Assembly (NCBI RefSeq): GCF_036023875.1
Contig: NZ_CP107931.1
Location: forward strand, 2,976,001-3,040,000
Direction: 5' to 3'
From: Mycobacterium sp. NBC_00419
Lineage (GTDB): Bacteria > Actinomycetota > Actinomycetes > Mycobacteriales > Mycobacteriaceae
DNA length: 64,000 nt
The translations under genes were made by a program, and so were the position numbers. Below, piece after piece: positions 1,169 to 5,040 of the stretch; the stretch's first letter is position 1; every line of letters starts with the position of its first letter. Below the pieces are notes generated by a model, which saw nothing but the letters and a program-made list of their open reading frames with translations, made no database searches and was not told the DNA's origin.

Positions 1169-1254
1169 GTACCCCCACGGGTATGACGGAGAACACTTGC
1201 ATATACCCCCATAGGTATCTATCGTAGGACGGGAACACATACCCCCAGTGGTAT
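1169..1254. promoter_or_regulatory. Three tandem CsoR/CstR-type operator sites
   Basis: Three 16-bp pseudo-palindromes share the pattern RTACCCCCA-N3-GGTAT-like: GTACCCCCACGGGTAT at 1169-1184, ATACCCCCATAGGTAT at 1203-1218 and ATACCCCCAGTGGTAT at 1239-1254. C-tract/G-tract sites flanked by ATA/TAT are the known operator style of the CsoR/CstR/RcnR repressor family, and a CstR-like gene lies in the operon just downstream. The sites start 34 and 36 bp apart. The last one ends 27 bp before the tauE ATG at 1282. Site 1 sits closer to the divergent ClC gene and could affect it too. Confidence 0.8.
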
Positions 1255-1281
1255 ACGAGCCACGCCGAGGAGGCACCCGCC

Positions 1282-2157
1282 ATGGTCATCGCGACAGTCG
1301 TTCTGGCGGTCTTCGTCGGGATCTCGCTCGGACTGCTCGGCGGCGGGGGGTCGATCCTGACCGTCCCCCTGCTGGCCTATGTGGCTGGTCTGGACACCAA
1401 ACAGGCGATCGCCACCTCGCTGCTGGTGGTCGGTACCACCAGCCTGGTGGGGGCGGTGTCCCATGCCCGCGCCGGGCGCGTCCAATGGCGCACCGCTGGC
1501 CTCTTCGGTGCGACCGCCATGGTCGGCGCGTACGGGGGCGGGCACATCGCAGCTTTCGTTCCCGGCACCGTGCTGCTGATCGGGTTCGCGATCATGATGG
1601 TCGCCACCGCGATCGCCATGCTGCGCGGCCGCAAGAACTCAGCCGGTAGTGCGACCGGCGCCGCCCTGTCGTTGCCGAAGATCGCCGCGGTGGGCCTCGG
1701 TGTCGGTCTGGTCACCGGGCTGATCGGCGCCGGGGGAGGCTTCCTGCTGGTGCCCGCTCTGGTGCTGTTGGGCGGACTACCGATGCCGATCGCCGTTGGC
1801 ACGTCGCTGGTGATCATCGGGATGAACTCCTTCGCCGGATTCGCCGGCTACCTGTCCAGCGTGCAGATCGACTGGTCTCTTGCCGGCATGGTGATCGCCG
1901 CCGCGGTCGTCGGTGCCCTGATCGGCGCCCGGTTCGCCGGGCGGGTCGATCCGGAACTGCTGCGCAAGGGATTCGGCTGGTTCGTCCTGGGCATGGCGTC
2001 GGTGATCCTCGGTGAGGAGATCCACCCGGTGGTCGGATTCACCTGCGCCGCAATCACTGTGGTTGCAGCCGCAGCGATGTTCGCATGCAACCACATCGCA
2101 TCCTGCCCATTGCGCCGATTCACCGGCCAGTCCACCCGAATCGGAGCTGCGGCATGA
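1282..2157 (+). CDS. TauE/SafE-family sulfur-anion permease
   Basis: Integral membrane protein of 291 residues, normal for the TauE/SafE family, which exports or imports sulfite, thiosulfate and related anions. The two-fold family repeat is visible as [15 protein letters not shown] near residue 15 and [15 protein letters not shown] near residue 150, each followed by hydrophobic helices. A purine-rich ribosome site (GAGGAGG) precedes the ATG. It is the first gene of the sulfide operon and overlaps cstR by 4 bp (ATGA). In the Staphylococcus cst operon a TauE protein accompanies CstR, so export of sulfite or thiosulfate made by the downstream enzymes is the likely job. The last 45 residues carry three cysteines, which is unusual for a permease tail. 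Confidence 0.88.
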
Positions 2158-2442: not shown

Positions 2443-3822
2443 ATGAAGTTCAACCAGTACTACCTGGAATGCCTGTCGCATGCGTCCTACCTGATCGGCG
2501 ACGAGACCACCGGTCGCGCCGTCGTGGTCGACCCGCAACGCGACGTGTCCGAATACATCGCCGACGCAGCGGAACTCGGCATGACCATCGAGCTGGTCAT
2601 CGAAACCCACTTCCACGCCGACTTCCTGTCCGGGCACCTCGAACTGGCCAAAGCGACCGGCGCCCGGATCGTCTACTCCTCGATCGCCCAGCCGGAGTTC
2701 GACTTCATGGGGGTCTACGACGGCGAGCGCTACTCGCTCGGTGACGTGCAGCTGGAATTCCGGCACACCCCGGGTCACACACCTGAGTCGATGAGCATCG
2801 TCATCTACGAGCACGCCGATGACACCCTCCCGTACGGCGTGCTGACCGGTGACACCCTGTTCATCGGTGATGTGGGCCGGCCGGATCTGTTGGCGTCCAT
2901 CGGCTTCACCCGCGAGGAACTGGCCGACAAGCTCTACGACTCCCTGCACGACAAGTTGATGCCCCTGCCCGACACCACCCGCGTCTACCCCGCCCACGGT
3001 GCCGGCTCGGCGTGCGGCAAGAACCTTTCGACCGAGTTGTGGTCGACGATGGGCGAGCAGCGCAGGACCAACTACGCGCTGCGCGCCTCGGACAAGGCGA
3101 CGTTCATGGAGATGGTCACCGAGGGTCAGCCGCCCGCCCCGGGCTACTTCGTCTACAACGCGATCCTCAACCGCAAGGACCGCGACCTGCTCGACGAGAC
3201 CGAGATGCCCGCGCCGATGACCTATGACGAGGTCAAGAATGCGGTCACCGCCGGCGCCATGCTGATCGACGGTCGCTCGCCGGAGGAGTTTGCGCTCGGG
3301 CATCTACGGGGCGCCGTCAACATCGGATTGGGTGGGCGCTACGCCGAATTCGCCGGCTCAGTGGTCAAGCCCGACGTCGACCTGGTGATCATGACCGAGC
3401 CCGGCATGGAGCTGGAGGGCAAGAACCGTTTGGCCCGAATCGGTTTCGACCGTGTCGTCGGTGTCCTCGCCGAGCCCTACCAGGTGATGTTCGCCAACCC
3501 CGACGACGTCGAGGTCGCGTCGCGGTTGACCACCAACGCGATGGGCGAGCGGATGGCCGATGTTCCCGAGCTGCAGATCGTTGATGTGCGCAACCCGGGC
3601 GAGGCGGCTGCCGGAATGATCCCCGGCGCGGTGAACATTCCGGTGGGTCAACTGCCGGACCGGGTCGGTGAACTCGATCCGGGCAAGCCGACGGTCGTGT
3701 ACTGCGCCGGCGGCTACCGCTCCTCGGTTGCGGCGAGCGTGCTGCGCCAGCGCGGCTTCGCCGATGTCAGTGATGTCTTGGGTGGCTACGGCGCCTGGGA
3801 CGAAGCAGTCCAGAACGCTTGA
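2443..3822 (+). CDS. Persulfide dioxygenase-rhodanese fusion (CstB-like)
   Basis: 459-residue multidomain enzyme that would oxidise glutathione-type or low-molecular-weight persulfides (in mycobacteria probably mycothiol persulfide) and pass sulfane sulfur. Residues 1-245 are a metallo-beta-lactamase fold with THFHAD (55-60), HTPGH (108-112), TGDTLF (D137) and YPAHG (H185), the mononuclear iron site of ETHE1-type enzymes. C191 in AGSACGKN matches the extra cysteine known in CstB. A central rhodanese-like domain (about 260-350) has no active cysteine, and a C-terminal rhodanese domain has C421 in YCAGGYRSS. The Phe after THFHAD is normal in this subfamily. A GGAAAGGAAG ribosome site supports the ATG. 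Confidence 0.9.
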   Translation: MKFNQYYLECLSHASYLIGDETTGRAVVVDPQRDVSEYIADAAELGMTIELVIETHFHADFLSGHLELAKATGARIVYSSIAQPEFDFMGVYDGERYSLGDVQLEFRHTPGHTPESMSIVIYEHADDTLPYGVLTGDTLFIGDVGRPDLLASIGFTREELADKLYDSLHDKLMPLPDTTRVYPAHGAGSACGKNLSTELWSTMGEQRRTNYALRASDKATFMEMVTEGQPPAPGYFVYNAILNRKDRDLLDETEMPAPMTYDEVKNAVTAGAMLIDGRSPEEFALGHLRGAVNIGLGGRYAEFAGSVVKPDVDLVIMTEPGMELEGKNRLARIGFDRVVGVLAEPYQVMFANPDDVEVASRLTTNAMGERMADVPELQIVDVRNPGEAAAGMIPGAVNIPVGQLPDRVGELDPGKPTVVYCAGGYRSSVAASVLRQRGFADVSDVLGGYGAWDEAVQNA

Positions 3823-3837
3823 GAGGCAACGAGAATC

Positions 3838-5040
3838 ATGAGCACGACAGCAAAACACCAGGTTCTGATCGTCGGCGGCGGCACTGCCGGAATCACGGTA
3901 GCCGCACGCATGCTCCGTAAGGGCTACACCGACGTCGCGGTCATCGAACCGTCGGACAAGCACTACTACCAGCCGCTGTGGACCCTCGTCGGCGGCGGCC
4001 AGGCCAAGGCCGGCAGCACCGAACGTGCCGAATCCTCGGTAATGCCCAAGGACGCCAGCTGGATTCGCACATCCGCCGAGAGCTTCGACCCGGAGAACAA
4101 CACCGTCACCTGTTCGGACGGCGCCACCTACGGCTACGACGTGCTGGTGGTCGCACCCGGCATCCAGCTCGACTGGCAGGCCACCGAAGGACTGGCGAGC
4201 ACGCTGGGCCGCGACGGGGTGTCATCGAACTACCGGTTCGACCTGGCACCCAAGACCTGGGAGTTCATCCGCAACACCCGGTCGGGCACCGCCGTGTTCA
4301 CCATGCCCACCGGCGGGGTGAAGTGCGCAGGCGCCGGGCAGAAGATCGCGTACCTGGCGTCGGACTACTGGCGCAGGCAGGGCGTGCTGTCCGACATCGA
4401 CGTCCATCTCGTGGTGCCCGGCCCGCGGATCTTCGGAATCCCCGGCATCGCCGACAATCTCGACAAGGTGATCGCCGGCTACGGCATCACCCTGCACACC
4501 GAGTCGGAGATGACCGCGGTCGACGCGGACGCCCGCAAGGTGACGGTGTCGGCGGTCGGACCCAGCGGCAGCGACGCGATGCTGCCCTACGACGTACTAC
4601 ACGTCGTGCCGCGGCAGTCGGCACCGGACTGGATCAAGCGCAGCCCGCTGTCCACCGGCGATGCCGCCGGCTACGTCGAGGTCGACAAGCACACCCTGCA
4701 GCACGTCCGCTATCCCAACGTGTTCGCTCTCGGGGACGTCGCATCCTCACCCAACGCCAAGACCGGCGCGGCGGTGCGCAAGCAGGCCCCGGTGGTGGTC
4801 GACAACATCGACGCCCACCTGGGCGGTCGACCGCTCACCGGCTCCTACGACGGGTATTCGTCATGCCCCATCGTCACGTCGTCGCACGACATGCTGCTCG
4901 CCGAGTTCGACTACGACCTGAACCTCACGCCGTCGTTCCCGGGTCTGGACCCCACCGCACCGCATCGGGCGTACTGGTATCTGAAGAAGTACGGGCTGCC
5001 GTTCCTGTACTGGAACCTGATGCTCAAGGGCCTCGCCTGA
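3838..5040 (+). CDS. sqr: Sulfide:quinone reductase, FAD-dependent, type II-like
   Basis: 400-residue peripheral membrane flavoprotein that oxidises H2S at a cysteine pair and passes electrons to menaquinone. It begins with a Rossmann FAD motif (LIVGGGTAG, 11-18). Two redox cysteines sit in contexts typical of mitochondrial-type enzymes: C163 in GGVKCAGAGQK and C343 in YSSCPIVTS. The third cysteine used by many bacterial type I enzymes is not seen at the usual place. Fifteen bases separate it from the CstB-like gene, so it is the last gene of the operon. The C-terminal PFLYWNLMLKG segment is amphipathic and suits membrane attachment. Confidence 0.92.
   Translation: MSTTAKHQVLIVGGGTAGITVAARMLRKGYTDVAVIEPSDKHYYQPLWTLVGGGQAKAGSTERAESSVMPKDASWIRTSAESFDPENNTVTCSDGATYGYDVLVVAPGIQLDWQATEGLASTLGRDGVSSNYRFDLAPKTWEFIRNTRSGTAVFTMPTGGVKCAGAGQKIAYLASDYWRRQGVLSDIDVHLVVPGPRIFGIPGIADNLDKVIAGYGITLHTESEMTAVDADARKVTVSAVGPSGSDAMLPYDVLHVVPRQSAPDWIKRSPLSTGDAAGYVEVDKHTLQHVRYPNVFALGDVASSPNAKTGAAVRKQAPVVVDNIDAHLGGRPLTGSYDGYSSCPIVTSSHDMLLAEFDYDLNLTPSFPGLDPTAPHRAYWYLKKYGLPFLYWNLMLKGLA

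Follow-up and report, generated by a model that had tools for sequence, protein, structure and literature searches.

A candidate CstR regulon in Mycobacterium: a cst-type operon without CstA and its putative extension to an MmpS-MmpL exporter

In this work we describe a four-gene operon, tauE-cstR-cstB-sqr, at the left end of a 64,000-nucleotide stretch of DNA from Mycobacterium sp. NBC_00419 (contig NZ_CP107931.1, positions 2,976,001 to 3,040,000; the whole stretch is referred to below as the window). A preliminary description, made from the letters of this DNA, had noted a parallel to the Staphylococcus cst operon, albeit without CstA, and the comparison bears this out. Both systems combine a TauE permease, a CstR repressor with two cysteines, a CstB with the same ligands (C201 and C408 in the staphylococcal protein) and a 16-bp operator whose half-sites are separated by six bases (n6). 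The staphylococcal locus that we compared is that of an S. equorum plasmid, on which no sqr appears; sqr is a further member of the Staphylococcus cst system. There, tauE-cstR is divergent from cstA-cstB, whereas the mycobacterial genes, including sqr, form a single directional operon. The mycobacterial locus also differs in lacking CstA and TusA, in carrying three operators ahead of tauE, and in encoding a CstR only 31% identical to its staphylococcal counterpart. In addition, a second CstR is encoded elsewhere together with a DUF302 protein, and MmpS-MmpL and AhpD-like genes bear the operator. The staphylococcal system is reviewed in PMC9774590, and the CstR of E. faecalis is treated in PMC9405070.

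Other described systems share some of these features. The ScCsoR circuit of Streptomyces coelicolor has ATACCn6GGTAT sites, two sensing cysteines (C37/C66) and a PDO gene co-transcribed with tauE, and the regulator controls pdo, tauE and rhod (PMC7533328). In that circuit, however, separate genes encode PDO, rhodanese and regulator, and the part of the results considered here mentions no SQR, DUF302 or MmpS-MmpL. The SUL module of Arthrobacter plasmids, described from sequence, comprises a putative sulfur dioxygenase, a CsoR-family regulator, two rhodaneses, TauE and DUF302 (PMC6305408). It has a major-facilitator transporter and not MmpS-MmpL, and the excerpt mentions neither an SQR nor an operator; the MMPL gene of these plasmids belongs to a separate, TetR-linked module. 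That DUF302 keeps company with such genes is thus not new: the SUL module of Arthrobacter, the nearest printed precedent, had already brought it together with a sulfur dioxygenase and a regulator of the CsoR family. DUF302 has also been tied to sox clusters and to a plasmid operon with sqr (PMC5037610, PMC5061849). Thermus TTHA1953 is likewise a two-cysteine CsoR-family regulator of sulfur genes, but it controls Sox, and a word search of the paper finds no TauE and no DUF (PMC10318464). The mycobacterial RicR copper regulon has a regulator of the same CsoR family and a similar palindrome; it is distinguished by the metal-binding His, a seven-base spacing (n7) and copper-type genes downstream. 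For mycobacteria themselves, no cst or sulfide-sensing regulon appears among the open-licence papers surveyed, judged by title and start of abstract, in keeping with the earlier remark that such processing is little described there.

We place tauE-cstR-cstB-sqr at the core of a CstR regulon in mycobacteria, which would be a form of the cst system that lacks CstA and is extended by MmpS-MmpL, and assign this reading a probability of roughly 85%. The operators, the second CstR and the candidate wider regulon (DUF302, AhpD-like and MmpS-MmpL genes) go beyond the preliminary description.

The four genes and their signature residues

The operon occupies positions 1282-5040 of the window and consists of the following genes:

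tauE, 1282..2157, + strand: TauE/SafE-family permease, 291 residues; PF01925, E 1.2e-51
cstR, 2154..2408, + strand: CsoR-family repressor of CstR type, 84 residues; PF02583, 7mq1
cstB, 2443..3822, + strand: persulfide dioxygenase with a degenerate middle rhodanese and a putatively active C-terminal rhodanese, 459 residues
sqr, 3838..5040, + strand: sulfide:quinone oxidoreductase (SQR), 400 residues, close to the mitochondrial SQOR type

The preliminary description had placed these genes in one operon with overlapping or closely spaced reading frames and had named the products a TauE-like permease, a CstR-like repressor with two cysteines and no metal histidine, a CstB-like dioxygenase-rhodanese with both signature cysteines, and a sulfide:quinone reductase. 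Each of these assignments stands. All four genes lie on the + strand; tauE and cstR overlap by 4 nt (ATGA), and gaps of 34 and 15 nt separate cstR from cstB and cstB from sqr. The Pfam and PDB assignments are concordant for every member.

CstR falls within the DUF156/CsoR fold family (PF02583 Trns_repr_metal, E 1.1e-21, 77.4 bits against a cut-off of 22.8). It has C30 and C59, and glycine (G55) occupies the position of the metal-ligand His of copper sensors. We aligned 58 CsoR-family rows, namely the window CstR, its relatives in the same genome and those in the fetched loci. Fifty-seven of them show the C-G-C pattern; five duplicate others over CstR residues 5-80, leaving 52 distinct CstR-type sequences, all C-G-C (52/52), and the sole C-H-C row is the RicR of this genome. 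The closest solved structures, 7mq1 and 7mq2 (one sequence, E 2e-10), are labeled CsoR in the PDB, while a figure legend names 7MQ2 as CstR (PMC9774590). Against the RicR model, CstR scores 38.4 bits, below the cut-off of 175, and G55 departs from the Cys-His-Cys pattern of that family. Together, residues and structural matches support the assignment of the window regulator to the CstR class of repressors.

In CstB, Pfam recognizes Lactamase_B and, in two stretches, Rhodanese, and the nearest structures are 3tp9 (5e-82) and 3r2u (2e-62). The dioxygenase cysteine C191 and the C-terminal rhodanese cysteine C421 align with C201 and C408 of the annotated staphylococcal CstB, whose other dioxygenase ligands also match, while the middle rhodanese-like stretch is degenerate and has no cysteine. 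H56, H58, D60, H112, H185, C191 and C421 are kept in 46/46 sequences (the window and 45 of the 47 fetched loci, the partial L046 and L048 falling under the score limit), and D137 in 45/46, with one unreadable. By family and residues, CstB is a putative persulfide-to-thiosulfate enzyme. A further cysteine, C10 (2470-2472), is present in all 46 aligned actinobacterial sequences and is Asn in the staphylococcal CstB compared.

SQR belongs to Pyr_redox_2, and its best structural match is human sulfide:quinone oxidoreductase SQOR (E 2.6e-95). C163 and C343 correspond to the redox cysteine pair of the SQOR type and are kept in 34/34 aligned sequences (the window and 33 rows scoring at least 500 bits). 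SQR enzymes deliver electrons to the quinone pool. TauE may export sulfite or some other oxyanion of sulfur. Near its C-terminus, C269 and C275 (2086-2106) are found in 14/14 aligned proteins, counting the window and 13 rows of at least 300 bits, with remoter TauE proteins left out; they possibly form a thiol pair on the permease.

CstA of Staphylococcus consists of rhodanese, TusA and DsrE2-like parts, as seen in a domain search of the staphylococcal protein. No TusA domain (PF01206) was found in the whole genome, in a search whose control was positive in 11 of 14 genomes. Because the genome has no TusA domain, CstA is taken as absent, and a complete operon of the Staphylococcus type is not encountered here.

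Operators, and sulfur versus copper control

Upstream of tauE, three copies of a 16-bp palindrome, RTACC-n6-GGTAY, start at 1169, 1203 and 1239, 34 and 36 bp apart, and are interleaved with a putative promoter:

operator O1, 1169..1184: n6 palindrome, GTACCCCCACGGGTAT
putative -35 element TTGCAT, 1197..1202, + strand: by direct reading
operator O2, 1203..1218: ATACCCCCATAGGTAT, inside the 17-nt spacer between -35 and -10
putative -10 element TATCGT, 1220..1225, + strand: by direct reading, 17-nt spacer
operator O3, 1239..1254: n6 palindrome, ATACCCCCAGTGGTAT

The preliminary description had begun the locus at 1169, which is the first base of O1. Dinucleotide shuffles of the window give an expectation of 0.02 sites against the three found, and none of 100 shuffles reaches three. 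TTGC stands directly 5' of an operator in the four tauE-first relatives shown (4/4; L004, L005, L010 and L043); the -10 element is identical in L004, TATGGT in L005 and weaker in L010 and L043. Scanning 1100-1290 for generic sigma-70 promoters and for terminators called nothing. By reading and by comparison with these relatives, TTGCAT/TATCGT is likely to be the operon promoter.

The operators are conserved well beyond this genome. Within 400 bp of the operon start, at least two sites are present in 41 of 47 loci and at least one in 42 (window included), and across 541 kb of loci the motif occurs 115 times, compared with 1 and 2 occurrences for two control patterns. The staphylococcal cstR-cstA intergenic region carries ATACCCTTATAGGTAT, of the same 16-bp n6 kind as O2. 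Within the genome, the strict form ATACCC-n5-GGTAT without mismatch picks out five places (six rows, one of them on both strands), all ahead of candidate regulon genes, and with one mismatch allowed it yields 34 rows versus 7 for the control. The operators are presumably bound by CstR or by the second regulator, CstR2.

A copper response of the operon and the other n6 sites under a CsoR/RicR-type regulator would draw on the Pfam family that CstR shares with CsoR and RicR, on the resemblance of RicR operators to the n6 palindromes, and on the reported rise of the copper regulons of CsoR and RicR when M. tuberculosis is given the H2S donor GYY4137 (PMC7711268). The genome argues otherwise. CstR and CstR2 lack the metal His, as the C-G-C pattern of the 52 distinct sequences shows; the enzymes of the operon are sulfur enzymes; and a separate RicR with Cys-His-Cys passes the NCBIfam cut-off (183.7 versus 175). 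This RicR has operators of its own kind: a 17-bp n7 site, ATACCCCTGGAGGGTAT, lies ahead of the DUF305-ricR transcript (L075:4981-4997), one base longer than the CstR n6 sites. The genome holds 11 n7 places, and besides that of ricR two more are C-rich with AT ends (L167 and L169). The L167 site (1501-1517) lies just upstream of a gene whose heavy-metal-associated and E1-E2 ATPase domains mark it as encoding a heavy-metal P-type ATPase; for L169, the target gene was not recognized. In three of the remaining eight n7 places (L159, L160 and L162) the flanks were inspected and no copper gene was recognized. We therefore predict, from the n7 sites at ricR and the ATPase gene set against the n6 sites of cst type, that copper-type promoters in this one genome carry n7 and sulfur-type promoters n6, a division drawn from two copper-type promoters. 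Control by copper in place of sulfur is accordingly disfavored, and we regard it as highly improbable.

Several observations nevertheless weigh against the assignment of the operon to a CstR regulon. The identity of CstR to staphylococcal CstR (31%) hardly separates it from RicR (28%); for CstR2 the values are 38% and 36%, and its best PDB match is InrS. An NCBIfam search names no CstR or CstB model, and because staphylococcal CstR and CstB match none either, the search can be used neither way. No operator lies within 400 bp in five of the 47 loci (L038, L040, L041, L044 and L045), which are titled Ilumatobacter, Acidimicrobiaceae, Ilumatobacteraceae and, twice, Actinomycetes bacterium, and none of which is titled Mycobacterium or Mycolicibacterium; the two Actinomycetes bacterium loci, L044 and L045, have one site each, 551-555 bp upstream. 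A looser pattern is not enriched genome-wide (16 places versus 17 for the backward control). Finally, RicR may cross-bind at n6 sites, and the n6 sites are not allotted between CstR and CstR2.

Other genes behind the n6 operator

Outside the window, the same operator precedes three further sets of genes:

cstR2-DUF302, L072:5736-7167 (G000:C1:4524.7-4526.2 kb): three n6 operators upstream
mmpS-mmpL, L073:1197-4759 (C1:4715.7-4719.1 kb), - strand: conserved n6 operator
AhpD-like (CMD) gene, L074:4227-4616: encodes CxxC; n6 operator begins 27 bp before the start

CstR2 is 71% identical to CstR. Searching for DUF302 by Pfam gave matches in 170 of 198 genomes, and the 30 best-scoring loci were fetched; a CstR gene stands directly upstream of DUF302 in 17 of these 30 and an operator in 20. 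DUF302 calls over cstR in L005, L007, L010 and L043, made by the profile on stop-to-stop frames, proved to be shadow frames and were discarded. At the cstR2 locus, the DUF302 gene overlaps a gene for an OmpR-type response regulator, which may be part of the same transcript.

The MmpS-MmpL pair is MmpL4/5-like, and its MmpL is closest to MmpL4 among solved structures. Close mmpS matches (E up to 1e-45) number 25, in 23 of the 198 genomes, and 24 of them have an n6 operator directly upstream (within 400 bp in 23). The 24th was scored on L196, since L188 ends at a contig end, and the 25th sits behind cstR2 in a run whose operators lie further up. An identical 16-mer is found at 20/25 matches and an identical 21-nt island at 18/25; in five aligned mmpS promoters, this island is kept while its surroundings drift. 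The genome's own mmpS paralogues at C1:2718126 and C1:722911 have no n6 site. CstB is present in 21 of the 23 genomes with a close mmpS versus 91 of the 175 others, in a Fisher test that ignores shared ancestry, and the two close-mmpS genomes without CstB still carry the mmpS operator.

Genes that lie far apart here stand side by side elsewhere, as the clusters and plasmids of relatives demonstrate. mmpS-mmpL adjoins cstR and cstB-sqr in L026 (M. sphagni), L027 (M. vinylchloridicum), L050 and L195, and on an M. crocinum plasmid two operators separate cstR2-mmpS-mmpL from a divergently oriented cstB. In L035 and L039, tauE-cstR2-DUF302 and a cstB-like gene (32%) are divergent from cstB-sqr. The AhpD-like gene is divergent from cstR2-DUF302 across a single operator in L154, and cstR2, DUF302 and the AhpD-like gene are consecutive in L155. 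An M. chubuense plasmid has cstB, sqr, a CstR gene, DUF302, tauE and a second metallo-beta-lactamase-rhodanese gene in succession, and an M. adipatum plasmid has a group of like composition, interspersed with a GntR gene and ctaD.

Because the loose pattern equals its control genome-wide, the single sites at mmpS and ahpD depend on conservation and synteny. That equality would also fit chance matches or sites of another regulator, as would the low frequency at ahpD, where only three of nine orthologues, our own included, have a site within 40 bp upstream, with a fourth lying in the cstR2-DUF302-ahpD run. The same holds for a sample of 31 genomes in which, remote paralogues included, 9 of 19 mmpS matches have an n6 site within 220 bp upstream. 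For the close mmpS matches, however, the site in 24 of 25, the 21-nt island in an otherwise drifting promoter and the operons and clusters with cstR2 speak against chance, as do, for ahpD, the operator shared with cstR2-DUF302 in L154 and the single run in L155. We consider a chance or foreign origin of these sites unlikely. The more probable reading, held with less confidence than that of the core operon, is that a persulfide sensor of environmental mycobacteria has MmpS-MmpL under its direct control, together with DUF302 and the AhpD-like protein, so that sulfide stress would call on both oxidation and MmpL export. DUF302 would then be a dedicated partner in the handling of sulfane sulfur. 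As to what is exported, we can offer guesses: MmpS-MmpL might restore the iron supply when sulfide ties up iron, a version suggested by the proximity of MmpL to the siderophore exporter MmpL4 among solved structures, or it might export a sulfur-bearing lipid or thiol adduct.

Proposed mechanism and distribution

The chain proposed here runs from sulfide through SQR, persulfide and CstR release to CstB and TauE and is drawn from what is known of these families, the staphylococcal cst system among them. Reduced CstR tetramers on the three n6 operators, one of which lies within the -35/-10 spacer, would block the tauE promoter. Incoming sulfide would be oxidized by SQR, with electrons passing to the quinone pool and a low-molecular-weight persulfide as product; judging from the genus, mycothiol persulfide is the most likely carrier. 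Persulfides would join C30 and C59 of CstR through di- to tetrasulfides, upon which CstR would leave the DNA and the operon would be read. The dioxygenase domain of CstB would then convert persulfide to sulfite, its rhodanese would transfer a second sulfane sulfur to give thiosulfate, and TauE would export the oxyanion. The same operator would place CstR2-DUF302, the AhpD-like protein and MmpS-MmpL under the same signal, from separate places here and from one cluster in some relatives.

The same enzymes could instead serve the catabolism of sulfur compounds (sulfide or persulfides from cysteine, organosulfur compounds or thiosulfate) for energy or sulfur supply. SQR enzymes feed the quinone pool, and of 198 genomes sampled from the genus, 112 contain CstB relatives at a threshold (E up to 1e-60) low enough to let in sequences of about 35% identity. 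The M. adipatum plasmid (L199:3211-16497), moreover, has its cst genes next to genes annotated as sulfite oxidase, CcdA, cytochrome c oxidase subunit I and a thioredoxin domain, which together are possibly a sulfide-to-sulfate pathway. However, no Sox gene or sulfite oxidase was seen on reading the open reading frames of 1-9000, and the presence of TauE suggests that the product is expelled. The two roles can coexist, and catabolism in place of detoxification appears rather unlikely.

H2S is reported to promote mycobacterial respiration and growth (PMC8657789). If the sites work as they look, an MmpL exporter is tied to a redox-sulfur signal. The detoxification reading also offers a candidate sulfide regulon whose operator is perhaps distinguishable from that for copper by a single base of spacing. 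It opens persulfide sensing in mycobacteria to direct experiment and gives DUF302 a setting in which to search for its function.

Named CstB matches come from Mycolicibacterium and Mycobacterium species, e.g. M. litorale, M. rhodesiae, M. sphagni and M. aurum, and from environmental assemblies. In addition, 115 plasmid records carry CstB relatives, and at least three of these plasmids are mycobacterial.

Its neighbors delimit the operon at either end, since the upstream gene, for a ClC-type channel, runs in the opposite direction from about 1095 and the downstream gene, HPr-like (5043-5300, - strand), converges with it, both by reading. The latter belongs to a fructose phosphotransferase system block (5043-9215, - strand; HPr, FruA-like, FruK-like and a DeoR-type regulator, again by reading) that converges on the cst operon. 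An Rfam search of 1-9000 returned zero matches. Two metagenome-assembled genomes titled Bifidobacterium breve (L016 and L022) contain cst genes of mycobacterial type, with CstB identities of 85% and 83%, and these assemblies are probably mislabeled.

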